Part shown: one piece after another, positions 4,239-25,760 of the stretch
Layout of the letters: each line of letters opens with the position of its first letter
Numbering within the stretch: position 1 is the stretch's first letter
Virus record (IMG/VR): IMGVR_UViG_3300034404_000004
Location: 1 to 25,760 of that record
From: a virus
Direction: 5' to 3' (one strand)
Length of the DNA: 25,760 nucleotides
Made by a program: the position numbers and the translations under genes
The notes under the pieces: model-generated
What the model saw: only the letters and a program-made list of their open reading frames with translations
Databases searched by the model: none
Told to the model about the DNA's origin: nothing

Positions 4239-4681
4239 ATCACTCCCTCCAAAGCTTTCATAAACTCTACAGCTACCTTTTGTGCCCTATCTTGCAAGTT
4301 TGCAAAGAAGAATGGATAGGGCTTGCTTCCCGGGTGGCTGACTTTCTTTCTGAAGATGTAGCCCTCGGGAGTGGGAATTTTCAAGGCTTTCCTTCTTTTT
4401 GGTAGTATGGTATGTGGCTTAGTGCCAAACTCCACATACTTAGCATAATCCGCCTGTGCTATTATACGTGCGGACGTCTCCGACGCCATATACCAAGTAA
4501 TAGACCTTTGCAAGTTTCCAGTTCTCGGCGTAAAAGCCCGCCCGCTGTCTATCCAATCGTGAATGTCTTTCACATATGTCTCAGCTGCTATCATGATTGC
4601 TCTCCTAAGACTTTTTTCTACTGCGCCTTGTTGGAGTATCTGCGGGAGTTTCTTTATTTTCAGTTCTACCTTCATCTTCAA
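4235..4681 (-). CDS. HK97 gp10-like / Mu gpG-like neck protein
   Basis: This 148-residue protein carries the signature of this family: TPRTGNLQRSI near residue 52, then YAKYVEFGTKPHTILP near residue 80, and a late PYPFFF segment where family members have a similar aromatic patch. Such proteins help complete or join the tail to the filled head. A second in-frame ATG lies two codons downstream. Its start overlaps the preceding gene by 77 bp in another frame, which is unusually long for this otherwise tight operon. Confidence 0.75.
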   Translation of the reverse strand: MKMKVELKIKKLPQILQQGAVEKSLRRAIMIAAETYVKDIHDWIDSGRAFTPRTGNLQRSITWYMASETSARIIAQADYAKYVEFGTKPHTILPKRRKALKIPTPEGYIFRKKVSHPGSKPYPFFFANLQDRAQKVAVEFMKALEGVI

Positions 4682-7796: not shown

Positions 7797-8289
7797 CCCC
7801 CCAAAGCTTGTTTTCTCCCTCTTCGTTTTCCCAACCTTTTAAGTAGAAATCCTTGCCTCGTTGGTTGTCCGGAGAGCTCCACTCGCTCCCTTTGGCATTT
7901 TTGATGTTGGGTAATTGTTGCCTGAATTGCAGTATTCCGTTCCACTGTTGACGGGACTGTTTGAATGCTTCGTAGTCCCGCTTTAGGTTCTCAATATTCT
8001 CTCCATTCCGTTCGTATATCTCTATCAACTCCCTCAGGTGCTTCCCGATTATGTATTTGTAGTCTGTAAATCTGTAGCTCTCCGGCGGCTGATTGTTCCA
8101 TATAGAGAGATACCATCCCATTAGGTGTTGTAGCTTCTTGCCGTCTTCTTTTTCCGTTTCCTTTTCCTTCATTTCCATCTCCAGTCTTGTCTTTAGTTCC
8201 ATTAGCACCTTGACCGCTTCCCTGATGTTTTTTTGCATAAGCAACTCTATAGCCTTCTCAATTTTTTTAAGGATTTGCCTCTCCGTCAT
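7762..8289 (-). CDS. Putative replication accessory protein
   Basis: This 175-residue protein starts with a helical, Glu/Lys-rich half (about residues 1-50). Then follows a region with YRFTDYKYIIGKHLRELI (near residue 72) and a long linker, ending in a Trp/Asp/Glu-rich acidic tail. The middle segment resembles primosome or replication-initiator accessory domains that pair with DnaC-type loaders, but this is a weak resemblance. ATGA overlap with the Zn-finger gene and overlap with the next gene place it in the replication operon. Confidence 0.5.
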   Translation of the reverse strand: MTERQILKKIEKAIELLMQKNIREAVKVLMELKTRLEMEMKEKETEKEDGKKLQHLMGWYLSIWNNQPPESYRFTDYKYIIGKHLRELIEIYERNGENIENLKRDYEAFKQSRQQWNGILQFRQQLPNIKNAKGSEWSSPDNQRGKDFYLKGWENEEGENKLWGDEDDEIPWLSK

Positions 8290-8804
8290 GCCACAGCCCT
8301 CCTTTGTCTCCTCATTTTTTTGAACTTACTTTTGATAGCCTCGGGGTGGCGGTTTAACTTTCTTGCGAGTTCCTGCAAAATTGCAGATTTGCATCCGTAT
8401 TGAGAAAGAGTTTCCCAGATAAGCTTCTCCTCCCACTCTTCATATCTCCGCCGTTCTTTCATCCCCTTTTCTCTCCGCATCTTCTCCAAAAACCTCTTCC
8501 TGTATTCCCTTTCGCATTGATTGCTGCAGTATTGGTCGCTGTTTTGGGTTGGAATGAATTTCTCTCCACAAATTCCGCATTTCCGCATCACCTTTTCTAC
8601 AGACTCGCCCGGAAAGCCAAACACGGGCGGGTCATCATTCAGGACTTGGAGGATGCCCGCCCTTACTTGTGCGTTTATCAGGCTCCTTACCTTCTCTTTT
8701 ACATACTGTCTGAGGAACGATGGCGGGTTGAGTTCCTTCAGCACCATCCACGGTGTGAAAGCCCTCAGTTTGAGCATGATTTCCCAGATCTTCCCGTCAG
8801 TCAT
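8286..8804 (-). CDS. DNA-binding protein with winged helix, zinc finger and SANT-like domain
   Basis: This 172-residue protein appears to have three parts. An N-terminal winged-helix-like part spans about residues 5-65. A zinc finger is formed by Cys76, Cys79, Cys93 and Cys97 (CGICG...YCSNQC), followed by a basic helix. A C-terminal helix-turn-helix of the SANT/homeodomain type lies around WEEKLIWETLSQYGCKSA and LARKLNRHPEAIKSKF. It lies between the MuB-like gene and the replication genes, with GGAGGTG before the ATG. A nucleic-acid-binding role in transposition or replication is likely, but the exact function is unknown. Confidence 0.65.
   Translation of the reverse strand: MTDGKIWEIMLKLRAFTPWMVLKELNPPSFLRQYVKEKVRSLINAQVRAGILQVLNDDPPVFGFPGESVEKVMRKCGICGEKFIPTQNSDQYCSNQCEREYRKRFLEKMRREKGMKERRRYEEWEEKLIWETLSQYGCKSAILQELARKLNRHPEAIKSKFKKMRRQRRAVA
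8373..8386 (-). repeat. CTGCAATTTTGCAG palindrome, exact copy (Zn-finger gene)
   Basis: This is an exact copy, reading CTGCAAAATTGCAG on the plus strand. On the coding strand it encodes Ala-Ile-Leu-Gln, a different frame from the copy in the endolysin gene. Confidence 0.8.
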
Positions 8805-8807
8805 GTT

Positions 8808-9497
8808 TCACCTCCCGAGGGCTTTGGCTATTTTGTCCAATGTTTCTGCCGTGGGTTCTAACTTCTGACTTTTTAAGGCTTGCAAGCAAATTGCTGTATC
8901 CAGTGTGGTCCAGCCTTTCTCTTTTGCAAAATTGAATATCTGCACTGGGTCTGCTTGTATGCGGTATTCTTTGACGAGGAAGGAGATTGTTTCTTGGGTC
9001 AATGGCTGTAATTCTTTTTTTATAGCGAACCGTTTGAATAAGCTGTGGTCGTGGGATGCGAGGAGTTTGGGAGTGGTCTGGTCTCCGAGGAAGAGGTAGC
9101 AAAAGCCCAATTCTTCATCTTCGGAGAGGTCTTTCAATTCATTCAGGATGTGCTGTTTTCTGAGTATTCTCTGTGCCTCATCCAATATAAGAATTGGTTT
9201 GAGGTTGTAATATAACAGGTGGTGTTTGATAAGGTCTAAGGTGCTTTCGTAGGTAGACCTCGCACCACACCCTAAGCTAAAGCCAATAAGCCGATATAAC
9301 CGCCCCATCGTTATCTCTCCGTCGGGGGCCTTCACATAGAATACGTCTGGCTCCCGTTTTGCTATCTTTTGTGCGGAGACAGTTTTACCTGTCCCCCATT
9401 TACCCCATATGATAGCGTGAAGGGGTATGGTTTGCTCTGCCCTAAGACGTCTTAGGGCTTGGATGGTTGTGGTTAGGACTTGTTCTGCGTGCGTCAT
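8808..9497 (-). CDS. MuB-like AAA+ transposition ATPase
   Basis: This 229-residue protein has Walker A GKWGTGKT (residues 32-39) and Walker B ILILDEAQRI (102-111), with a sensor region YLFLGD near residue 135. It follows the transposase gene, overlapping its stop as ATGA. This is the pattern of MuB/TnsC-type ATPases, which bind DNA, choose target sites and activate the transposase. It is shorter than Mu MuB (312 residues), and the first 25 residues leave little room for a separate N-terminal DNA-binding domain. GGAGGTGAGCA precedes the ATG in a 23-bp block shared with another early gene. Confidence 0.8.
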   Translation of the reverse strand: MTHAEQVLTTTIQALRRLRAEQTIPLHAIIWGKWGTGKTVSAQKIAKREPDVFYVKAPDGEITMGRLYRLIGFSLGCGARSTYESTLDLIKHHLLYYNLKPILILDEAQRILRKQHILNELKDLSEDEELGFCYLFLGDQTTPKLLASHDHSLFKRFAIKKELQPLTQETISFLVKEYRIQADPVQIFNFAKEKGWTTLDTAICLQALKSQKLEPTAETLDKIAKALGR

Positions 9498-9510
9498 TGC
9501 TCACCTCCTA
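9488..9510 (-). repeat. 23-bp translation-start repeat, copy 1
   Basis: A 23-bp block with GGAGGTGAGCA, ATG and the first codons (Met-Thr-His) is identical to 13388-13410, exactly 3900 bp away and in the same orientation. It is the start region of two unrelated early genes. Confidence 0.8.
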
Positions 9511-10912
9511 AAAAGAGTTTTATTGGGTCCAGCTCCTCCTCAGGTTGAGGAGCTGGTTGTGAGCTTGGCTCAGAACTGCTTAAAAGCTCTAAAAAGGTTG
9601 CGGTCTCTTTTTGTTGTTGTAGTTCTTGCTGTTCAATCTCAATTAGTTCTTCTTTTAGCTTTCTCTTTCTTCTTTCTATCCTCTTTTCCTTGTTCCTTAG
9701 TTCCTTTATCTCCGTTGGGTCAAGGCTGGGGACATCTTGAGAGATTAGGCGGGCTATTCCGAGGGGGCGGGTTTCTTTTTCGTCCCAGACTTCTAAGATT
9801 GTGGCGTTTTCAAGGTCCCGATAACAGACCACTTCAGGGCTCTTTCTCGTTCTACCTATTTCTCCAGCCCGCTCTTCAAATGGATAGACAAATTCATAAA
9901 CTAAGTTCTCAATTCTTATAGCGTTGTTCCTAACAGTCCTCACAAACCGTTCTCTGAAGGCTTTCCTGATTTCATCCTCTTCTACTTGTCTGTATTCAAC
10001 TGTTGAATGTAAAATTTCAGGGATTACGGGTTCGCTGAAGTGTTCAAATTTATGTTCAGACTTGTTATACATCTCCACAGCAGACCTTAAGGCGCCTTCA
10101 AATGTCGGGTGAGTGTTTGTGTAGTATCTCAGAAGGTCTTTTATATCTCTAAAGCTTCTCTCTATAAGCTTTTGATTTGGCGCATATGGTTTAGTTCTCA
10201 CTACTGGGATGTTTAAATACTCAAGCCCTCGTGTGATGAGTTCTGCCTTCAGGACTGCTTCGTTGTCTGTTATGATGCGTTCGGGTACCCCATACTCTCT
10301 AAATAGAGAGATTAAAAACCGTGCTACATCAAGTGAATTGAAAGCTTTGTTATAGTGTTGGGCTTGGGTGTCTTCTTTGACTTTTGCCACCATGCAGGAG
10401 AGGAAGCACCCGCTCCACCTCTCCCGCACGGCGAGAATAAAATACCTCTCCCCTCTCCATGAGTAGGCTGTGGCATCTATTTCCCATGTGGCTGGCTCCC
10501 TTTTTTGTTTCCCTTTTGGTTTTCTATACTCTGCCAGCTCTGACTTATCTCTTCGCTTTAACTCCAGTCTTTCCCAGCCGCCAAACCTCTCCTTAATTAC
10601 TTCCTCAAGCCTCCGTCTAAATGTCCGTTCACTCCTTATTCCTCTCGTTTGTAGATCAACTTCTAAAAGCTTGTATATTTGGACTATTGATAAAACCCTT
10701 GTTCTGCCTTTCTCTTCCTTGCTAAAGGTAAGAAGCTCTATCACCCTATCCCATATTTCGTCTTGGAGCACATCTTTTCGCTTCTGTTCTGCTTGTGATG
10801 GCTCCTTCACCCACCGTTCCACCGTGCTTTTTGGTATCCCTAAAACCCTTGCAATCCTCCTGATCGGGATACCAAGAGAGTAAAGCCGTAGGGCTTCTTT
10901 CCTCTTGTCCAT
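9494..10912 (-). CDS. DDE transposase (MuA/rve family)
   Basis: This 472-residue protein starts with a resolvase-like HTH (IPIRRIARVLGIPKSTVERW). It then has an RNase-H-fold integrase core with Asp146 (TWEIDATAY), Asp216 (IITDNEAVL) and Glu251 (NQKLIERSF). The spacing from second Asp to Glu is 35 residues, the classic D,D-35-E. The C-terminal part is basic, then Glu/Gln-rich, and may contact the MuB-like ATPase encoded next. It should cut and join the phage ends for integration and replicative transposition, acting on the repeats at 105-374 and at the unseen right end. TAGGAGGGCGG precedes the ATG. Confidence 0.9.
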   Translation of the reverse strand: MDKRKEALRLYSLGIPIRRIARVLGIPKSTVERWVKEPSQAEQKRKDVLQDEIWDRVIELLTFSKEEKGRTRVLSIVQIYKLLEVDLQTRGIRSERTFRRRLEEVIKERFGGWERLELKRRDKSELAEYRKPKGKQKREPATWEIDATAYSWRGERYFILAVRERWSGCFLSCMVAKVKEDTQAQHYNKAFNSLDVARFLISLFREYGVPERIITDNEAVLKAELITRGLEYLNIPVVRTKPYAPNQKLIERSFRDIKDLLRYYTNTHPTFEGALRSAVEMYNKSEHKFEHFSEPVIPEILHSTVEYRQVEEDEIRKAFRERFVRTVRNNAIRIENLVYEFVYPFEERAGEIGRTRKSPEVVCYRDLENATILEVWDEKETRPLGIARLISQDVPSLDPTEIKELRNKEKRIERRKRKLKEELIEIEQQELQQQKETATFLELLSSSEPSSQPAPQPEEELDPIKLFLGGEQ

Positions 10913-10922
10913 CTCCGCCCTC

Positions 10923-12578
10923 CTACCAGCCTCTTACAGCCTTTTTAGAGAACTCCTTCACTTTCTCGTAAATCTCATCTGCTATTTCAAACGCTTTTAC
11001 CCATCCCAACTTGACGCCCATATCCAATAGCAACTCTTCCAGTGCGTTCCTATACCAGTCTTCTATGTCCGGGGGTGGAGTTTTTTCTTTCTTTTCTTTT
11101 GCTTTTTTCTGCTCTTGTGCCTTCTTTTCAAGTTCTTCTTTATATCTCCTAAGGTCTTCCCAGTCCTCTTCGGTCATGCTTTCCTCTATTTCTTTCGCTA
11201 TTTGTTCTATCTTCGCCCAGTCTATTTGCGTTGTTTCTTCTGTTTCTTCTTTTAGCATCTCTTCTACCCTTTTTACTATCTCCTCTACCACCGCGTTAAC
11301 TGGTCTTAGCCTTTTCTCTTTAAGCTTTTGCAACACTCCTTCCTTTATCTTGGTTAACCTGCCCCACTTGTCTACATCCTTTACTTTCTCCTTTATTTCC
11401 TTCAACTCGTCTTCTGAGAGTGCGTCTGCTGTTGCCTCGGGGACTGCCTTATATACCTCCATCAATTTGTCTGCGTGTCTGTGGAGTATCTCCTCAATCT
11501 TCTCTTTGTTGATATACACAAATGTGTGGTCCATCCCTCCAAGTCTTGCCAAGTCTTCCCTTAATGTTCTCCACGTGTGGAATACATACTCAGGGTTAGC
11601 AAGGACTTTCTTAGCCTGTTCTAAAACTTCCCTCTCAAGCTTTTGCTCCTCTTCGTGTTCTTTCTTTAGTTTCTCCCATAAGGCTTGGGCTTTTTCAAAG
11701 AATACCTTGCGTGCTTTCAGGGATAGTTCTTTGTATGGATAGACGGTTATTAGGTAGTTTTTGACTTTTTCGTAGCTTGGACTGTCTATGAACCGTTTAA
11801 AATCTTTCCTAAGTGCCTCATTTAAAAACTTCAGAATGTCTCTGAGGTTCTGGTCTTTAACTACTTCGTTGAAGGGTTTGTCCTTTAACTCTCCCTCGTG
11901 TTCCTCTATGAACTCCGATAGGGCTTTAAAGCCCTCCTCGGTGGGGGTGCCGTCGGGGTTTATGAGGGTGGTGACAATCTGCAACTTTTGCAGGTTTTCA
12001 CCACTTCCCCCACCATACCACTTAACTATGGTAGAATGATCTACTCCAAGCATTGAAGCTATTTCTCTTGTGGATAAGCCCTGGTTCTTTAGTTCTAACG
12101 CTTGCCTTTTCAGTTCCTCATCCTTCGCCCTTCTCTTTACTCCCTGAACCCAATTGTAGATTGTCCGCTCTGAAACCCTAAACAGCTTTCTTAGCCTTTC
12201 TATCTCTACTCCGTCTGCATACAACAGCCTTGCCAGTTCTTTCTTTTCTTCCTTATCCAAGGGTATCCCATGGCTTGCGTTCTTCTCAATGGCCAATATG
12301 CGAGCTTCCAATTCGTTCTCCAGTTCTACCACTTCCGCTTTGATGGTGTCTTTCCCAAGCCTTTTGCTTGCAAGGAGTCTGTGCATGCCGTCAATAAGCC
12401 AGTAAATCCCATTTCCCTTATCCCATACTGTGATTGGTGGGAACTCCTGCCCTTCTGCCATCGCCTCTTGGTATTCCTGCACTTTCTCTTCTATGGTGTG
12501 GGTGTAAATACGGGGCAGTAAGCCCTGAATGACTTCAATTTTGGTTATTGGGACCTCAAAAACACCTTTGCTTCTCAT
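10923..12578 (-). CDS. ParB-like DNA-binding protein
   Basis: This 551-residue protein has an N-terminal ParB/Srx-like domain with LIDGMHRLLASKRLG (residues 61-75) and NASHGIPLDKEE (100-111). Two helix-turn-helices follow (LRKLFRVSERTIYNWV near 129-144 and LSTREIASMLGVDHSTIVKW near 168-187), then about 350 mostly helical, charged residues. The ParB-box Arg is kept in GMHR. It is much longer than usual ParB proteins (about 300 residues). It is the first gene after two terminators and directly precedes the transposase. It may organise phage DNA, regulate transcription or assist transposition. No ParA is visible in this window. GGAGGT lies 7 nt before the ATG. Confidence 0.75.
   Translation of the reverse strand: MRSKGVFEVPITKIEVIQGLLPRIYTHTIEEKVQEYQEAMAEGQEFPPITVWDKGNGIYWLIDGMHRLLASKRLGKDTIKAEVVELENELEARILAIEKNASHGIPLDKEEKKELARLLYADGVEIERLRKLFRVSERTIYNWVQGVKRRAKDEELKRQALELKNQGLSTREIASMLGVDHSTIVKWYGGGSGENLQKLQIVTTLINPDGTPTEEGFKALSEFIEEHEGELKDKPFNEVVKDQNLRDILKFLNEALRKDFKRFIDSPSYEKVKNYLITVYPYKELSLKARKVFFEKAQALWEKLKKEHEEEQKLEREVLEQAKKVLANPEYVFHTWRTLREDLARLGGMDHTFVYINKEKIEEILHRHADKLMEVYKAVPEATADALSEDELKEIKEKVKDVDKWGRLTKIKEGVLQKLKEKRLRPVNAVVEEIVKRVEEMLKEETEETTQIDWAKIEQIAKEIEESMTEEDWEDLRRYKEELEKKAQEQKKAKEKKEKTPPPDIEDWYRNALEELLLDMGVKLGWVKAFEIADEIYEKVKEFSKKAVRGW
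11979..11993 (+). repeat. Palindrome variant with 3-bp spacer (ParB-like gene)
   Basis: CTGCAACTTTTGCAG has the same arms as the dispersed palindrome but a CTT spacer in place of TT. Confidence 0.6.
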
Positions 12579-12611: not shown

Positions 12612-12639
12612 AAAAAGCGGGAAGGCGTTGCGCCTTCCC
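12612..12639 (-). terminator. Intrinsic terminator 2 before the ParB-like gene
   Basis: A perfect 9-bp stem (GGGAAGGCG / CGCCTTCCC, loop of 3) at 12619-12639 is followed on the minus strand by CTTTTTA. It lies 34 nt upstream of the ParB-like start codon. Confidence 0.8.
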
Positions 12640-12674
12640 AAATGGCAACTGATAGGGAGGAAGAACCCTTTTGT

Positions 12675-12699
12675 AAAAAGGCGGGGCTTGGGACCCCGC
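12675..12699 (-). terminator. Intrinsic terminator 1 before the ParB-like gene
   Basis: A 6-bp GC-only stem (GCGGGG / CCCCGC, loop of 7) at 12681-12699 is followed on the minus strand by CTTTTTA. It is the first of two tandem terminators in the same gap. Confidence 0.75.
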
Positions 12700-13898: not shown

Positions 13899-14162
13899 CT
13901 ACCTTTTTTTGCTGGACGTAGGGTTAGCGGTCTTGTTTTCTACACGCTTAGTTCTTAAATATTCCTCGTAAACTTGCGGGAGGTCAGGAAGATGCAAAAA
14001 CTCTGCAATTTTGCAGACGAGAGGGCGGGAGATTTTCTTACCAGACAGCACACTAAACAAATAGACATGATTAACATTGAGAATGTTCGCCAGCTTGCTA
14101 AGACTTATTCCCTGCCTCTTACCTGCATCTTTTACAATATCCCTTATGAGGTTAGAACCCAT
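13899..14162 (-). CDS. Cro-like repressor, first early gene
   Basis: This 87-residue protein has a classic small HTH: GISLSKLANILNVNHVYLFSVLSG followed by KISRPLVCKIAEFLHLP. It is the first gene transcribed from the early promoter, opposite the CI-type repressor, so a Cro or Ner role fits. The ATG has no Shine-Dalgarno and lies 7 nt after the TATAAT -10, so its mRNA is probably leaderless. Confidence 0.75.
   Translation of the reverse strand: MGSNLIRDIVKDAGKRQGISLSKLANILNVNHVYLFSVLSGKKISRPLVCKIAEFLHLPDLPQVYEEYLRTKRVENKTANPTSSKKR
14003..14016 (+). repeat. CTGCAATTTTGCAG palindrome, exact copy (Cro-like gene)
   Basis: This exact copy lies inside the Cro-like gene, where the coding strand reads Cys-Lys-Ile-Ala. 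That is the third of the three possible frames used by copies of this motif. Confidence 0.8.
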
Positions 14163-14197
14163 AGGAGATATTATACCCCATCTGGGATGTTTGTCAA
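14163..14197 (-). promoter_or_regulatory. Early promoter (near-consensus sigma-70 type)
   Basis: On the minus strand TTGACA (14197-14192) and TATAAT (14175-14170) are 16 bp apart. The ATG of the Cro-like gene starts 7 nt after the -10, so transcription should begin at or next to the start codon. Confidence 0.85.
14174..14189. promoter_or_regulatory. Repressor operator O2 (imperfect palindrome)
   Basis: TACCCCATCTGGGATG fills the early promoter spacer and touches its -10. It matches O1 at 12 of 16 positions. A protein bound here would block early transcription. Confidence 0.7.
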
Positions 14198-14218
14198 GAG
14201 GAAGATGGTGGATATTAT
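14191..14218 (+). promoter_or_regulatory. Repressor-gene promoter, overlapping the early promoter
   Basis: TTGTCA (14191-14196) and TATTAT (14213-14218) are 16 bp apart on the plus strand. The -35 overlaps the -35 of the divergent early promoter almost base for base, so the two promoters compete. The predicted transcript starts about 15 nt before the repressor ATG. Confidence 0.65.
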
Positions 14219-14231
14219 CCCAAGTGGGATA
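14216..14231. promoter_or_regulatory. Repressor operator O1 (perfect palindrome)
   Basis: TATCCCAAGTGGGATA is a perfect inverted repeat (7-2-7). It overlaps the -10 of the repressor promoter, suggesting autoregulation. Its centre is 42 bp (four helical turns) from the centre of O2. Confidence 0.75.
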
Positions 14232-14240
14232 GGTGGAGGG

Positions 14241-14927
14241 ATGGACAAAAAAGCGGTAGGTGAAAGAATACGCTTAATCCGAAAGGCTTTAGGATTAACG
14301 CAGGCGGAGATGGGGGAAAAGATCGGGCGATCATGGAAGACGATCAACAGATGGGAGGCAGGAGAAAGAGATGTCCCCGACACTGCTTTAAAACTCATCT
14401 CCTCAACCTTCGGCGTCTCCTACCAATGGCTAAAAACAGGGCAGGGGGAGATGTGGGAGAGGAGAGAAAAAACACTATTAGAAGAGTTAGAAGCAAAAAC
14501 AAAAGAACTCCTCGAAAAGCTTGTGCGTATTCCAGTTGTAGGGCGTGCGGGGGCAGGATTTCCAGAAAGTCCCGCAGACATTGAAGCGGTGGGCTATGTT
14601 CTTGTTAGTAAGGAAACATTCCAGAAGGGCGGAAAGTTTTCAGTTCAAGTGTATGGCGATAGCATGGAACCTACACTGCACGATGGAGATTTTGTGGTGT
14701 TCAAGGCTTATGTGGGTGATGGGTCAGATATTCCGAGCGGGAAAGTGGTAGTCGTGCGGAATTACTCTGGGGAGTTGATTGTGAAAAGGCTTACAAGAGT
14801 GAATGGTTCCATTGTGCTAGCTTCTGATAATCCGAAGTATCCGCCCATTCTGCCAGAGCAGTTTAAAACTGAAGACTTGCGGATTGTAGGGGTAGCGGTT
14901 AAAATAGTAAGAGAAATTGAAGTGTAG
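14241..14927 (+). CDS. CI/LexA-type phage repressor (XRE HTH plus S24 peptidase domain)
   Basis: This 228-residue protein has an XRE helix-turn-helix at about residues 5-60 (LGLTQAEMGEKIGRSWKTINRW). The C-terminal S24 domain has a cleavage region GRAGAGFP (101-108), catalytic Ser141 in GDSMEPTL and catalytic Lys182 in LIVKRL. It should keep the prophage silent and self-cleave on RecA activation. The frame is open far upstream to 13974, but that stretch is the opposite strand of the Cro-like gene. I choose the ATG at 14241, after GGTGGAGGG and downstream of the predicted promoter. An in-frame ATG at 14205 is less likely because it lies between promoter elements. Confidence 0.85.
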   Translation: MDKKAVGERIRLIRKALGLTQAEMGEKIGRSWKTINRWEAGERDVPDTALKLISSTFGVSYQWLKTGQGEMWERREKTLLEELEAKTKELLEKLVRIPVVGRAGAGFPESPADIEAVGYVLVSKETFQKGGKFSVQVYGDSMEPTLHDGDFVVFKAYVGDGSDIPSGKVVVVRNYSGELIVKRLTRVNGSIVLASDNPKYPPILPEQFKTEDLRIVGVAVKIVREIEV

Positions 14928-16974: not shown

Positions 16975-17201
16975 TTGAAGAACTCATCAGTGCAAACCAT
17001 CAAGTCTTTGACTACCCTCTCCCATTCCTCCGTGAGATTATGTCTGCTTACTACAAACGCAAAATGCGGGAGTGGAAGGAATTTGTCTATCTTGTCAAGC
17101 TTGCGGTATGGGGTTCAAAGGAAGATATAGACAGCGTATTTGGAGAAGAAGAAGAAAGCATAGAAGAACTTTTAGAGGAGTTTGGCGATGGCGATAAGTG
17201 A
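16914..17201 (+). CDS. Tail assembly chaperone extension (gpT-like), made by -1 frameshift
   Basis: This frame is open from before the slip site to 17201 and carries a helical segment (LAEIIEELISANHQVF, DYPLPFLREIMSAYYKRK) ending in an acidic tail. It has no good start of its own; the ATG at 16884 gives an unlikely N-terminus and has no fitting position. The simplest reading is a -1 slip on T TTT TTT at 16914-16920, which yields a G-T fusion starting at 16633, as in lambda and many siphoviruses. The end overlaps the tape-measure start by 14 bp. Confidence 0.7.
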   Translation, partial: FFYRTESTASEGERTTLAEIIEELISANHQVFDYPLPFLREIMSAYYKRKMREWKEFVYLVKLAVWGSKEDIDSVFGEEEESIEELLEEFGDGDK

Positions 17202-19851
17202 ACAGCTTGTATTAGAGATCAGGGCAGAAGTCGGACAGCTAAGGGCACAGCTGGATGAACTGAGAAACAGACTACAGGGTATAGACACAAGCTGGACTGA
17301 AAATTTGCAGAAAAACATAGAACAAAGCACTCAGTCTGCTAAACAGCTTGCAAGTCAGTTTGAAAACATAGCATCTACTATACGGACAATAGCATTGTCT
17401 TTACCTTTTCTGGGCTTCATCAAAGAGGGTATTGAATTCAATAAACAGATAGAACAAAGTCGCATTGGCTTTGCGGGTATTCTTACATCTATCGCACAGA
17501 TAAGAAACGAGCAAGGCAGGCTTGTGGAGGGTGCAGAGAAATACGCAAACGCAGTCAAGCTGTCAAATCAACTTCTCAATGAACTACGCATTGCAGGGTT
17601 GCAGACTGTCCTAACCTTCCAAGACCTTGTTGAAATAGCCCAAGGTATAATGGCACCTTTTCTGTCGGCAGGCGGTAATCTGAAAGAGTTCTCTCAGTTT
17701 GTGGTGCTACTCTCTAACGCAGTTGCTGCCATAGGACTACCCATGAACCAAGTAGTGCAGGAGGCAAGAGACCTCTTAATGGGCACAATTGATATGAACT
17801 CTCAACTGGCAAGGTCCCTTGGGATTACCAACGAAATGGTCAATAGATGGAGGGAACAGGGAACACTCTTTCAAGAATTGACTGCAAGATTGCAGGGTTT
17901 TCAGTTTGCGGGTAAAGATGTAGAAGGAAGCTTTACAGGACTACTCGCTAAAGCTAAAGAAGTTTTTCAGGTCTTTGCGGGCATGGCTACTGCTAAAGTC
18001 TTTGAGGCTATAAAGAAAGACTTGGATGAGTTTATAGCGAAGTTTTTAGTAGTCAAAGACGGGAAAATAGAGCTCTCCGTTGAAGGGCAAGAACTCGTAG
18101 AGAAGATTTCAGAAACACTAACAAATCTTTATAACATCATAAGCACTCTCGTGAAAGTAGTAGGCACACTCACAGTAGAATTCGGCGGGTTTATAACAAA
18201 AGCATTAGAGATATACATCGTAATAAAAGCTGTTTCTGCTTTGAAGTCTGCTATTGAAGCCTTAATCGGGAGCATGAGAACTCTCGGCACGGTGGGCGCA
18301 ACTGCAATAACGGGATTAGGCGCTCTGTTCTCACGGCTAAATATCATAGTGGCAACTGCGCTTGTGGGCTGGAACTTGGGCGAGATGCTTCGGGAGTGGC
18401 TGGATGAACAGACTAAAGGAGCATTCACTAAGTGGCTAATCAGAATAGAGACATTCATTATAGATGGAATTAACAGGCTGAGGGCTTTGATTGGTAAAAT
18501 TCCCGGTCTCGGTCGCTTTCTCGGTATCTCGGAGGAGGAACTGCAGGAAAGCTTAAAAATCACTGCAAAGATGCGGGAGATGGCGGAGGAAGATGCAAGG
18601 AGATACAAAGAAGCACAGCAAAAAGCAGCGCAAGAGATAAACCAAGCAGGGCAGATAACCGCACAGGCTATAAGACAAGTCTCTAAACAGCAAGTAGAGG
18701 AGATTTTGAAGTCCCTCAAGGAGCAAGAGCAAACAATTGCAAAATTGCAAGAGATAAAGCAAAAACTGAAAGACAGTCTATCCCTTCAGGATGTTATGAC
18801 TGCATTACAAGATGAAACTAAAGCATTCTCTCAAAAACTTGAACTCTCTTTAGACACTTCAGATGTAGAAGACAGAATAGACACGCTAAAGAGAAAGCTT
18901 AGAGAACTGCAAGACTTGCTAAAAGAAAACTTAGAAGACGAAGCACGCAAGCAAGTGTTAAGAGAAATATTGCAAACTGAACTTGAGATAGCACAAGCTA
19001 CAGTGGAGGGCTATCAGAGGAGAAAACAGGCACTGGAAGAATTTCTCAGGGATGCTTGGGCTAAAGAACAAGACTACGCACGCAAGGTAGTAGAACTCAC
19101 AAGGGAAAGGAACAATCTACTCGCACAGCTTGAGAAAGAAAGGCAAGACCTAATCAGCAAGTTTATTCCAAAAGAACTGCAAGTTCAGCTTGGATTTACA
19201 ACACAACAAGAACCAATCACGCGAGTAGCAAACATCCTAAACCTCGTCCAACAGGCAAGAGATCTCGCAAGTCAAATACAGCAAGCAGTCGCACAAGGCT
19301 TAGCACCGCAACAGATAGAAATTCTCAAGATGCGATATCAAGATTTAGTTCAGCAAATCAGGGACGGTTTAAAACAGCTAACTCCTGAGGAGGTTATACA
19401 AGCCTATCAGTCGCTTACATACTCTTCTAAAGAATCACTCACAAGGCTGTTTACAAACATAACAGGAGATATGCAGAAGGCAAATCAGCTTGTAGAACAA
19501 CTGTATGAAATATACCAAAGGATGCCCACCTCTCTTGCAGCGGCAGAGGGTGTGGACTTTGGTAGGCTGTTTGGTGCTACTTTTGTTGATTCTGTAATGA
19601 AACAGCTACAGCAAATGCAAGCAAGCGTGTCTGATAGCTTCATACAACAAGCACAACAACTTGAGAACTTCTACGCACAGCAGGTAAGCAAGATTTCTCA
19701 GATGATTATACAACTTGAGAATTTGAAGCCTCGCATAGAACTTGACATGTCCGCCGCAGAAGCGCAGATACAAAGTTTGAACGGTAGAAAGATAGTGATA
19801 TATGCAGACATTGTGAATTCTCAAACGGGCGAAGCGTTGAGGGTGAGATAA
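17188..19851 (+). CDS. Tape measure protein
   Basis: This 887-residue protein is the longest in the window and follows the frameshifted chaperones. It has an N-terminal coiled coil and a tape-measure-type domain containing VVQEARDLLMGTIDMNSQLARSL (split here over residues near 190-215). A hydrophobic stretch at about residues 310-405 is followed by long Gln/Glu-rich coiled coils to the end. At roughly 0.15 nm per residue it predicts a tail of about 130 nm. A TTG at 17182 is in frame. I choose the ATG at 17188 because GAGGAG lies 7 nt upstream. Confidence 0.85.
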   Translation: MAISEQLVLEIRAEVGQLRAQLDELRNRLQGIDTSWTENLQKNIEQSTQSAKQLASQFENIASTIRTIALSLPFLGFIKEGIEFNKQIEQSRIGFAGILTSIAQIRNEQGRLVEGAEKYANAVKLSNQLLNELRIAGLQTVLTFQDLVEIAQGIMAPFLSAGGNLKEFSQFVVLLSNAVAAIGLPMNQVVQEARDLLMGTIDMNSQLARSLGITNEMVNRWREQGTLFQELTARLQGFQFAGKDVEGSFTGLLAKAKEVFQVFAGMATAKVFEAIKKDLDEFIAKFLVVKDGKIELSVEGQELVEKISETLTNLYNIISTLVKVVGTLTVEFGGFITKALEIYIVIKAVSALKSAIEALIGSMRTLGTVGATAITGLGALFSRLNIIVATALVGWNLGEMLREWLDEQTKGAFTKWLIRIETFIIDGINRLRALIGKIPGLGRFLGISEEELQESLKITAKMREMAEEDARRYKEAQQKAAQEINQAGQITAQAIRQVSKQQVEEILKSLKEQEQTIAKLQEIKQKLKDSLSLQDVMTALQDETKAFSQKLELSLDTSDVEDRIDTLKRKLRELQDLLKENLEDEARKQVLREILQTELEIAQATVEGYQRRKQALEEFLRDAWAKEQDYARKVVELTRERNNLLAQLEKERQDLISKFIPKELQVQLGFTTQQEPITRVANILNLVQQARDLASQIQQAVAQGLAPQQIEILKMRYQDLVQQIRDGLKQLTPEEVIQAYQSLTYSSKESLTRLFTNITGDMQKANQLVEQLYEIYQRMPTSLAAAEGVDFGRLFGATFVDSVMKQLQQMQASVSDSFIQQAQQLENFYAQQVSKISQMIIQLENLKPRIELDMSAAEAQIQSLNGRKIVIYADIVNSQTGEALRVR
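18737..18750 (+). repeat. Palindrome variant (tape-measure gene)
   Basis: TTGCAAAATTGCAA differs from the dispersed palindrome only in its two outermost bases, and the exchange keeps its symmetry. Confidence 0.5.
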
Positions 19852-22698: not shown

Positions 22699-23274
22699 AT
22701 GGGTTCGCTAATTTTCCCTTACTATATTACCCAAGAGATAAGCTACTACGAAGACATTTACCCCAATAAACTCACTGTCTACGACAACGGAAATTACTGG
22801 TTTGTAAGTTATTTAGACATTTACACCTTCAACGTCATTGAATACTACTTCCCTACTGACCCACTTGCCACTTTCAACTTCCCCTACCAAGCGAGCGCTA
22901 AACTCCGCATTTTTGCAGACAACACCAACTACGCCTCCGCCCGTCTCCGCATATACACCGCAAACTCCATACAAGCCAAGCTAAGAATACAAACAGATAG
23001 CAAAATACAAGCAAAGCTAAGAATTCAAACCACCGGACCCGCACAAGCAAAGCTGTATATAATGACACTCCGTGCATCCCCACGCCCACAAGCCCGTTTG
23101 CGCATTGTTGCAGACAATAGCAATTATGCATCTGCTTTACTGAGAATAGAGACAAAAAGATTAGAGCCCGCACAAGCAAAGCTAAGAATTAGAACCCGCA
23201 CATACAACAGAAGAATCTCAATGCCCGACTACTACGCTTTTTATAACATAAACACCTTCGGCTTCCTACCATAA
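22699..23274 (+). CDS. Repeat-rich putative tail fibre
   Basis: This 191-residue protein contains eight copies of a short beta repeat with the core xAxLRI between residues 65 and 165, spaced 12-15 residues apart. The LRI elements lie at 69, 83, 95, 107, 119 (LYI), 134, 148 and 162. The periodicity suggests a beta-solenoid or stacked-strand fibre. A longer unit (RIxADNxNYASAxLRI) occurs twice, showing a past block duplication. It is the last gene before late operon 3, with AAGGAAGGGG upstream of its ATG. A role in host adsorption is likely from position. Confidence 0.65.
   Translation: MGSLIFPYYITQEISYYEDIYPNKLTVYDNGNYWFVSYLDIYTFNVIEYYFPTDPLATFNFPYQASAKLRIFADNTNYASARLRIYTANSIQAKLRIQTDSKIQAKLRIQTTGPAQAKLYIMTLRASPRPQARLRIVADNSNYASALLRIETKRLEPAQAKLRIRTRTYNRRISMPDYYAFYNINTFGFLP
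22897..23190 (+). repeat. Imperfect tandem repeats coding xAxLRI units
   Basis: The DNA carries repeated blocks such as CAAGCAAAGCTAAGAATT (near 23007 and 23171) encoding QAKLRI, giving eight protein repeats. Such arrays can change length by recombination. Confidence 0.7.
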
Positions 23275-23325: not shown

Positions 23326-23535
23326 ATGCGTATTACTGCAAAGCGGGTATGTGAGTTTTTACGCAGGATGAAAGAACTGCAAAATTGCAGTTTCCGGACA
23401 GAGAGATTGTCTGAAAAAGAAAAGCTTGTCTTCCTCACAGTGCAAATTTCAGACCGAGAATACGAAGGAGTAGGCATCACCGCTCGCTTGGCTTTAGAGG
23501 ATTTGATGAGGAATGTCTTAGAGGTGGAAGAGTGA
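23326..23535 (+). CDS. Small unknown protein, first gene of late operon 3
   Basis: This 69-residue protein has a basic start (MRITAKRVCEFLRRMKEL), a strand-like middle (KLVFLTVQISDREYEGVG) and a C-terminal helix. The ATG has no ribosome binding site and lies 7 nt after the -10, so it is probably translated from a leaderless mRNA. It contains an exact copy of the dispersed palindrome (23377-23390). Its stop overlaps the next start (TGATG). No family is recognised. Confidence 0.65.
   Translation: MRITAKRVCEFLRRMKELQNCSFRTERLSEKEKLVFLTVQISDREYEGVGITARLALEDLMRNVLEVEE
23377..23390 (-). repeat. CTGCAATTTTGCAG palindrome, exact copy (operon 3 first gene)
   Basis: This exact copy reads CTGCAAAATTGCAG on the plus strand and codes Leu-Gln-Asn-Cys. 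Confidence 0.8.
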
Positions 23536-23846: not shown

Positions 23847-24130
23847 GAAAGCAAGTCAATTATCTCATTTTGAAGTTTCTTGAACAAGTGTATCCGGACA
23901 GCTTGACAGTCAAAATGATTGAAGCGCTACTGGCGGACTGGAGGATATTCACAGACAGTAAAAAACTGCTTGAGAAGAACATCAAATACTTACTTGAAAA
24001 AGGCTACATAGAAGTGCTTGAAGTTGAACTGCCCGCCCATCAAACAAAAATCCAAAAACTAAGACTAACCGCCAAGGGCAAAGCTTTGATGGAAAAGGAG
24101 TTCATAGATGAACAAGTGGAGGAAGTCTAA
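23843..24130 (+). CDS. Winged-helix protein before terminase (Mu-like conserved gene)
   Basis: This 95-residue protein looks like a winged helix: NYLILKFLEQVYPDSLTVKMI, then a recognition-helix-like segment (SKKLLEKNIKYLLEKGYIEV), then a wing and LRLTAKGKALME. Mu-like phages carry such a small winged-helix protein between the DUF2730 and small terminase genes. It is coupled by ATGA to the previous gene and by TAATG to the next. It may help recognise phage DNA for packaging or regulate late genes. Confidence 0.65.
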   Translation: MRKQVNYLILKFLEQVYPDSLTVKMIEALLADWRIFTDSKKLLEKNIKYLLEKGYIEVLEVELPAHQTKIQKLRLTAKGKALMEKEFIDEQVEEV

Positions 24131-24639: not shown

Positions 24640-25760
24640 GGAAAAGGCGGTCAGCAGAGTTTTAGAGAGAGTTCTCATTTCAGAGGCGGACAAAGATAGA
24701 AAAGAGCGAGCAAGGAACGACTTTGCTTTCTTTTGCCAAACCTACCTTCCGCACATCTTCAGAAAACCTTTTGCACCATTTCAGTTAGAAATCATCAGCT
24801 TTTTAGAGAACCCAGACATGAAAAGAGTAGTTGTGGCAGCGCCGAGGGAACACGGAAAGACATCTCTCATATATCTGGGCTATGTTTTATGGTCTATCCT
24901 CTACGGAAAGCACAAGTTCATAGTCTGCATCGGAGCATCAGAACAGAGGGCGAAGGAACAACTGGAGGATATTCGGTTAGAGCTTGAAAACAATCCTGCA
25001 ATTTTGCAGGATTTCGGAGAGGTGATAAAGCGGGCTACAGTGGAGAGGATAGACACGGTGCACACTACAGTGATTTCACGAGGTGCAGGGCAGAAGCTGA
25101 GAGGTTTAGTCAAGCGTGGAGAAAGACCCGATTTAGTCATACTTGACGACATAGAAAGCGAAGAACACGCAAACTCTAAATCTCTCAGAGACAAGCTAAA
25201 GAAGTGGTTTTATAGGGTGGTGATGGGTTTATCTCAGAACGCAAAAATCTTTGTGATCGGAACCATCCTTCACTACGACTCACTGCTTAACGAACTCATC
25301 ACAAGAGGACAGGAGCTTGGCTGGTTTGCTAAGAAATACAAAGCCATCACCGACGAGGGCAAGCCCTTGCATCCATACCTTTGGACACTGGAAGCACTGG
25401 AGAAAAAGAAGCAAGAAATCGGAAGCTATGCGTTTGCTTCTGAGTATATGAACGAGCCCCTGTCCGACGAGGACAGAATTTTCAGACCTGAATGGATTAA
25501 GTATTACGAGGAAAAACTTGACTTAAGCAAGCTTGACATCGTGGCGGGCGTAGACCCAAGCACGGGTAAGGAAAAGGGAGACTACACCGCAATAGCGGTG
25601 CTTGGTAGGGACAGGGAGACAGGACACCTATATTCCTTGTTTATATATAATAAGCGTGCCACTCCTAACGAGCTGATAGACACCCTCATCTCCGTCCAGC
25701 TAACCTTTAAACCTTCCCTCATCGTCTTTGAAGAAGTAGCTTTTCAGGAGGTATACAGAA
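24629..25760 (+). CDS. Large terminase subunit (Mu gp28-type), 5' part
   Basis: The window holds the first 377 residues and no stop codon. The ATPase half has Walker A APREHGKTS (residues 71-79), Walker B DLVILDDIE (168-176) and a coupling segment FVIGTILHYDS (208-218). The nuclease half begins with AGVDPSTGK (Asp309) and has LIVFEEV (Glu368/369) as the second acidic site. It is the motor that pumps DNA into the head and cuts it. The gene carries an exact dispersed palindrome at 24996-25009. The portal and other head genes should follow outside the window. Confidence 0.85.
   Translation, partial: MSYKEKAVSRVLERVLISEADKDRKERARNDFAFFCQTYLPHIFRKPFAPFQLEIISFLENPDMKRVVVAAPREHGKTSLIYLGYVLWSILYGKHKFIVCIGASEQRAKEQLEDIRLELENNPAILQDFGEVIKRATVERIDTVHTTVISRGAGQKLRGLVKRGERPDLVILDDIESEEHANSKSLRDKLKKWFYRVVMGLSQNAKIFVIGTILHYDSLLNELITRGQELGWFAKKYKAITDEGKPLHPYLWTLEALEKKKQEIGSYAFASEYMNEPLSDEDRIFRPEWIKYYEEKLDLSKLDIVAGVDPSTGKEKGDYTAIAVLGRDRETGHLYSLFIYNKRATPNELIDTLISVQLTFKPSLIVFEEVAFQEVYR
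24996..25009 (+). repeat. CTGCAATTTTGCAG palindrome, exact copy (large terminase gene)
   Basis: This exact copy codes Ala-Ile-Leu-Gln in the terminase frame. Confidence 0.8.

Follow-up and report, generated by a model that had tools for sequence, protein, structure and literature searches.

A ParB-type gene fixed beside MuA/MuB-like transposition genes, and a dispersed palindrome as its candidate site, in a group of transposable phages

The parB-MuA-MuB locus

The stretch of DNA analyzed here, referred to as the window, is 25,760 bases long and makes up an entire IMG/VR record. It comes from a Mu-type transposable phage, as it carries a MuA-type DDE transposase, a MuB-type ATPase and repeat-bearing ends that lie at different host DNA; the virus probably infects hot-spring bacteria, with Aquificota as the putative host group. 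The transposition module and its surroundings comprise the following features.

8808-9497, minus strand: MuB/TniB-like AAA ATPase, 229 aa (phrog_296, 8.3e-12; TniB, 1.2e-5)
9494-10912, minus strand: MuA-like DDE transposase, 472 aa (phrog_310, 4e-18)
10923-12578, minus strand: ParB-like gene (parB), 551 aa, an open reading frame without internal stop
12618-12699, minus strand: tandem pair of terminator-like hairpins, immediately 5' of parB
13899-14162, minus strand: 87-aa HTH (Cro/Ner-like) gene, a rival candidate for binding the palindrome treated below
14170-14197, minus strand: early promoter-like site TTGACA-16-TATAAT, a perfect match
14241-14924, plus strand: CI/S24-type repressor (ORF listed from 13974)

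The acidic residues of the transposase, assigned by eye as the triad D146, D216 and E251 (D-35-E), are invariant in all nine aligned sequences. Its gene begins 10 bp past the parB stop and is followed by the MuB/TniB-like gene, so the ParB-like gene does directly precede the transposase, as a preliminary description of this DNA had stated. The absence of ParA noted there was likewise upheld: neither the window nor any of 11 related records, some of them fragments, matched the PF13614 profile (0 of 12), while all 14 control genomes were positive, and the ParA partner gene that marks a ParABS partition system was not found in these records. A Mu gp27-like small terminase is encoded at 24130, and the protein encoded at 22699-23274 is built of repeated AKLRI-type units, with DNA repeats at 22969, 23005 and 23170.

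The description of parB as the first gene of its operon could not be sustained, because the early promoter-like site (14197-14170) and several small genes precede it; parB is instead the first gene past the two tandem hairpins. Among 19 records examined, G000-G005 and G013p have both hairpins; one or both were found in G008, G014, G015, G016 and G036, and none in the remaining seven. Stem changes between records, compared by eye, mostly preserve pairing. These conserved hairpins separate the early leader genes from parB-MuA-MuB and suggest antitermination or attenuation of the transposition genes. The interval between CI and the early genes holds palindromes of its own, ACCCCA-NN-TGGGAT (14175-14188) and TATCCCA-NN-TGGGATA (14216-14231), which are likely CI operators; the CI recognition helices differ strongly among relatives.

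Within the ParB-like protein, the following parts can be distinguished, all encoded on the minus strand.

12264-12578: residues 1-105, predicted ParB/Srx-type nucleotide-binding domain (fold match and residues invariant in 24 of 24 sequences)
12129-12254: residues 109-150, HTH1, recognition helix VSERTIYNW, proposed palindrome reader
12009-12128: residues 151-190, HTH2 (HTH_23), with a variable recognition helix
11079-11966: helical insert of ~250 aa, within residues ~205-500, in long ParBs only
10926-11066: conserved C-terminal module ending ..GW..RGW, from comparison of relatives

Profile searches matched residues 5-142 to PHROG_1033, a ParB-like family of phages (E 2.4e-12), and gave a weak match to PF02195 (E 0.019; in genome mode 20.3 bits and E 1e-5, below the Pfam cut-off of 26.3). 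An AlphaFold2 (AF2) model was built on an alignment of 24 sequences (mean pLDDT 82.5) and compared with VIA-align. Noc 7ng0 aligned with residues 4-103 (Z 15.1; rmsd 1.6 for 96 residues) and Noc 7nfu with residues 3-148 (Z 13.2); KorB 8qa9 aligned with residues 5-147 at Z 11.8 (138 residues). Structure prediction, proposed earlier as a check on the CTP pocket, thus assigns to the N-terminal part of the protein a ParB/Srx-type nucleotide-binding fold. Residues 205-551 are modeled almost entirely as helix, and Foldseek searches of PDB and BFVD with this tail, folded by itself, listed no match at E<=0.001. The open reading frame, the PHROG_1033 match and the model agree with the earlier picture of a 551-residue ParB-like protein with two HTH motifs and a long helical tail. 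HTH2 is similar to the HTH at the N-terminus of the MuA-like transposase.

All 24 sequences share, among other invariant residues, Q18-G19..P22-R23, D63-G64..H66-R67 and I97..N100..H103-G104.P106-L107, groups that by eye can be read as boxes I (QGLLPR), II (the P motif, D-G-M-H-R, of GxxR form) and III (IEKNASHGIPL). Both G64 and R67 of the P motif are invariant (24/24). Where canonical ParB has GERR, the motif retains only the GxxR form, and box III is different as well; the D-G-M-H-R form presumably resembles that of StrR-type regulators. GxxR is the form of the P motif given in a passage of a 2025 survey of orphan ParB folds (PMC12704722). As reported in that part of the survey, binders of CTP, ATP and GTP all occur among such folds, 17 of 28 tested proteins bound none of them, and sequence is not a reliable guide to the nucleotide bound (PMC12704722).

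Linkage and ParB length among relatives

Related records were gathered with ParB and MuA queries, and 38 records were searched with both profiles; they are kin to one another and many are fragments, which affects all counts given for them. In each of the 28 records that cover the place, parB adjoins MuA (27 with both genes, G006 with MuA preceded by the end of parB), and the same is true of all 18 records found with MuA as the sole query. This count leaves out G034, which has 47 bases upstream, and four records broken inside MuA. In G022, 181 bases separate the two ORFs; elsewhere there is no room for another gene. The survey of fixation beside MuA-type transposases suggested in the preliminary description therefore found no covering relative with the same transposase that lacks the gene, and the parB-MuA/MuB linkage is fixed in this phage group.

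The protein had also been called oversized, a term that suits some clades and not the family. ParBs of 540-600 aa occur in the window clade and in G015, G016 and G013p, while those of relatives range from 300-340 aa (G008, G017-G024 and G036) through ~395 aa (G025 and G026) to ~445-470 aa (G027-G029). The 551 aa of the window protein result from the ~250-aa insert between HTH2 and the conserved C-terminal module; the length does not define the family. The tree of the ParB N-domain conflicts with that of MuA for G015, G016 and G013p, which indicates that ParB modules move between phages.

With tblastn, P0001 had no match in 50,697 phage records and none in genome contigs, where the MuA query had one match, in a bin labelled Bathyarchaeota that is probably misbinned. 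Two contigs of the phage group, L018 and L111 (C111), are binned in a Bathyarchaeota-labelled MAG, probably through misbinning. In G025 (L085 19096-19999), a TnpB-like ORF (identified by eye) and other foreign ORFs immediately precede parB, which looks like the entry of an insertion sequence into the early operon.

The dispersed palindrome and the phage ends

The dispersed palindrome is the striking part of the system. Copies in the window lie at the following positions.

208-221: CTGCAATTTTGCAG, inside the phage end; the inverted end repeat at 229 follows 20 bp after the start of its TGCAA core
1086-1099: copy
4293-4304: core TGCAANNTTGCA
8373-8386: copy, inside a coding gene (8286-8804, minus strand)
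14003-14016: copy, inside the 87-aa HTH gene
17882-17895: copy, inside an 889-aa gene (17182-19851)
18738-18749: core TGCAANNTTGCA
23377-23390: copy
24996-25009: copy, inside the large-terminase-like gene

The palindromes mentioned in the preliminary description were confirmed by counting: the window has seven exact CTGCAANNTTGCAG sites, against none in 100 shuffles, and nine TGCAANNTTGCA cores, against 0.05 expected. The density of sites in the phage is 3-5 per 10 kb. Without any prior motif, this palindrome is the commonest of its length in the window (seven copies, at most two for any other), and TGCAA-2-TTGCA ranks first in most related records. Set against a first-order Markov null, 32 of 35 related records (G002, G006, G011 and W01 used in part, G013 as one contig) contain an excess of TGCAANNTTGCA with P<=4e-4; the excess is strongest in G021, with 17 sites against 0.14 expected (P 5.6e-30). 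The three records without enrichment are G025 (none in 27.5 kb), G026 (none in 18.8 kb) and G013p (one site).

Conservation was compared over 830 site-partner pairs, which are not independent, with one of 189 sites dropped for its short flank and pairs kept at 65-97% identity. The ten fixed palindrome columns differ at a rate of 0.052, against ~0.19 in the flanks, and all ten fixed bases are kept in 620 of the 830 pairs. Most sites (168 of 189) fall within ORFs, where they occupy all three frames and encode 52 different peptides, a pattern of selection on the DNA and not on the protein. Chance or codon bias as the source of the palindrome was ruled out by the shuffles, the Markov null, the flank comparison and the frames.

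Two other roles were considered and set aside. Although the copy at 14002-14017 scored as terminator-like, the spacer of two bases and the absence of a regular run of Ts, judged by eye, speak against terminators. A CI operator is contradicted by the varying CI helices and by the gap between CI and the 87-aa HTH gene, which has its own palindromes, TATCCCA-NN-TGGGATA among them.

To gauge specificity, 79 stretches among the matches listed were examined, including L140 from a known record and ten that are family-like, of which L125 and L147 are only distantly so. Among these listed matches, all viral and all with the exact 14-mer, 69 are unrelated (633 kb); 68 of them have no second core site and one has two. 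The eight close family stretches have one to five core sites and the two distant ones have one and two. Of the seven core sites in a 2.4 Mb MAG, two contigs that belong to this phage group account for five, and two Aquificota plasmids (89 kb) contain none. Across the viral stretches, the MAG and the plasmids compared, the multi-copy state is specific to this phage group.

The motif is also placed regularly in the phage ends, one of which is present in the window.

96-375: phage end with TTGACAAAAAAATGGGACA repeats (direct copies at 104 and 305, inverted copies at 229 and 357) that are presumed to bind the transposase

Window bases 3-95 code for a DNA polymerase I motif (8jrb as the best match in PDB, 6e-11), and the phage starts at ~96. 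In all five ends of this type (G000, G002, G003, G014 and G033; G030 starts too near the repeat and was left out), the palindrome core starts 20-21 bp ahead of the first inverted repeat. In the four ends of the other type (G005, G006, G010 and G012), it begins 50-63 bp past the start of the second direct repeat. The end repeats of the low-GC clade differ (TTTTTCAAAAAAATGCAACA), yet in the alignment of G017, G019 and G021 a palindrome occupies the same position. G021, with both ends present, has 24 sites when spacers of 2 and of 3 bases are counted, and six of these are no more than 400 bp from an end (P 1.3e-5). Given these fixed places in both end types, the motif is a part of the transposition ends and not of the genome body alone.

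Contigs break off at the phage ends, and the host DNA that adjoins these ends differs. In the window, the host flank (1-96) indicates an insertion that interrupts a polA-like gene, and G003 and G033 share a common site. Three phages from both GC clades end directly downstream of tRNA-Ser(TGA) (L067 27-115 in G010; L068 2556-2643, minus strand, in G012; L080 12-98 in G022), and G005 (start of L066) begins with the same 3' end sequence. A target preference beside tRNA-Ser is possible.

Candidate reader, proposed role and known systems

Among the phage HTHs compared, that of ParB HTH1 has the most constant recognition helix. Its mean pairwise identity in motif-carrying records is 0.80 (25 sequences), compared with 0.53 for the MuA HTH (29), 0.43 for ParB HTH2 (25), 0.41 for the 87-aa HTH (21) and 0.36 for CI (16), with G025, G026, W01 and cut rows left out of the comparison. 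A constant motif fits a constant helix and HTH1 alone is constant; ParB, acting through HTH1, is therefore the likeliest putative reader of the palindrome, which becomes a candidate parS-like site. Evidence against this reading comes from G025 and G026, whose HTH1 is the same or nearly the same as that of the motif-rich G030 and which have no TGCAANNTTGCA sites. These two records also differ in the ParB C-terminus and in MuA, where they form the deepest branch, and we take their lack of sites as loss or absence in one lineage, a real exception nonetheless.

Another protein (the 87-aa Cro/Ner-like HTH protein, the transposase or a host protein) might instead bind the palindrome, leaving ParB with a separate role; this we consider unlikely, though less so than the alternatives weighed further on. 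The 87-aa HTH is very different in G026 and other genes occupy its place in G025, the two records without the motif; however, its helix varies elsewhere while the motif stays constant, and G028 and G029 retain the motif despite divergent 87-aa HTHs. A part for the transposase would agree with the palindrome copies in both phage ends, where MuA acts, and has a parallel in Mu, where the N-terminal domain of MuA binds the enhancer. Yet the MuA helix also varies, as does that of CI, and the end repeats, which are probably the MuA sites, differ between clades whereas the palindrome does not. A host binder is somewhat disfavored by the two Aquificota plasmids, whose 89 kb lack any core site.

As a whole, the findings are best explained by ParB loading at the end and internal sites and thereby marking phage DNA for MuA/MuB, an explanation that we hold tentatively and to which we give somewhat less than an even chance. 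An orphan ParB-type protein would then be the third part of a transposition module, parB-MuA-MuB. Its HTH1 would read the 12-bp palindrome TGCAANNTTGCA, HTH2 and the tail would contact other DNA or partners, and the N-domain, by analogy with ParB, Noc and KorB, would probably serve as a nucleotide-gated clamp. Loading would take place at the palindrome fixed inside each phage end and at the copies across genes, a few kb apart; candidate loading sites number nine cores in the window and up to 24 in a relative when the 3-base spacer is counted. ParB so loaded may label or compact phage DNA in replicative transposition, and its most likely use would be to let MuA/MuB distinguish phage from host DNA, so that the ends can find one another and insertions are kept off the phage's own copies. 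Against this explanation stand G025 and G026, the departures of the P motif and of box III from canonical ParB, the nine alphaproteobacterial phages described below, whose genes hold no comparable palindrome, and Mu, D3112 and B3, which do without an annotated ParB.

A stronger version holds that a ParB clamp starting from end and gene palindromes coats the phage DNA and confers whole-genome immunity to self-insertion, with the motif copies in structural and other genes maintained at the DNA level for that purpose; we regard it as rather improbable. To our knowledge, no dedicated protein for such whole-genome immunity has been described in Mu. The part of the literature on Mu genome immunity consulted attributes its bulk, over a 37-kb genome, to factors other than MuB (PMC7350765), and a factor of this kind is therefore wanted.

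Two further explanations compete with the marking of phage DNA for MuA/MuB. ParB could be a long-range gene regulator like KorB or VirB that loads at palindromes, slides and switches phage promoters, in keeping with the KorB 8qa9 match and with the two conserved terminators before parB, which suggest regulated expression; KorB reportedly slides and silences at a distance. Nevertheless, 168 of the 189 sites are within ORFs rather than at promoters, the fixed copies in both phage ends are left unexplained, and parB lies in the early lytic module opposite CI and is therefore probably off in the prophage, all of which makes a regulator distinctly unlikely. Still less credible is partition or packaging, with the sites as a diffuse centromere or a packaging mark. 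The ParB fold and the scattering of sites over the phage genome would suit it, and ParB-CTP is said to condense DNA; against it, transposable phages sit in the chromosome, as the contigs broken at phage ends beside different host DNA illustrate, and Mu-type packaging begins at one end. Partition itself was rejected for the lack of ParA in the 12 records.

What emerges is a phage group in which ParB is fixed beside MuA/MuB and one DNA signal is selected both in the ends and genome-wide. This yields a concrete two-component hypothesis, open to binding and mini-transposition tests, and a possible function for orphan ParB folds, which according to a passage of the 2025 survey are common on mobile elements (PMC12704722).

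The placement of ParB beside MuA, regarded in the preliminary description as unfamiliar among transposable phages, is already known. A tblastn search with the vB_ThpS-P1 ParB, together with annotated records, showed that nine transposable phages of alphaproteobacteria (vB_ThpS-P1, vB_PeaS-P1, vB_RhkS_P1, RcapMu, RcWaterboi, RR1-B, POA1180, Aussie and StopSmel) have a ParB-like gene just upstream of their transposase genes: in three it directly precedes them, and in six one or two small genes intervene. A passage of a 2017 paper already prints the order parB-transposase A-transposase B (PMC5488378). These modules resemble that of the window in having a ParB-like gene upstream of A and B, a repressor nearby and no annotated ParA; in contrast, their ParBs are ~270-325 aa long, and no comparable dispersed palindrome was found in the genes of the nine phages, the repeats of RR1-B, POA1180 and RcapMu being intergenic. 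In the open-access literature searched, no paper came up that treats dispersed palindromes or the function of ParB in transposable or Aquificota Mu-like phages.

Mu itself, with MuA/MuB target immunity and Mu genome immunity, has the same kind of transposase and ATPase and the same self-insertion problem, but no ParB is annotated in the records of Mu, D3112 and B3; any parallel with Mu is thus functional only. KorB of plasmid RK2 shares the ParB fold and HTH, resides on a mobile element and is not a plain partition protein. It is a regulator with promoter-linked sites, whereas the phage sites lie mostly in genes and transposon ends. Noc of Bacillus and Geobacillus likewise has a ParB-type fold with an HTH, functions without a ParA partner and has many short palindromic sites across the genome; the phage ParB differs from it in its second HTH, in the long helical insert of this clade and in having a transposase as its neighbor.
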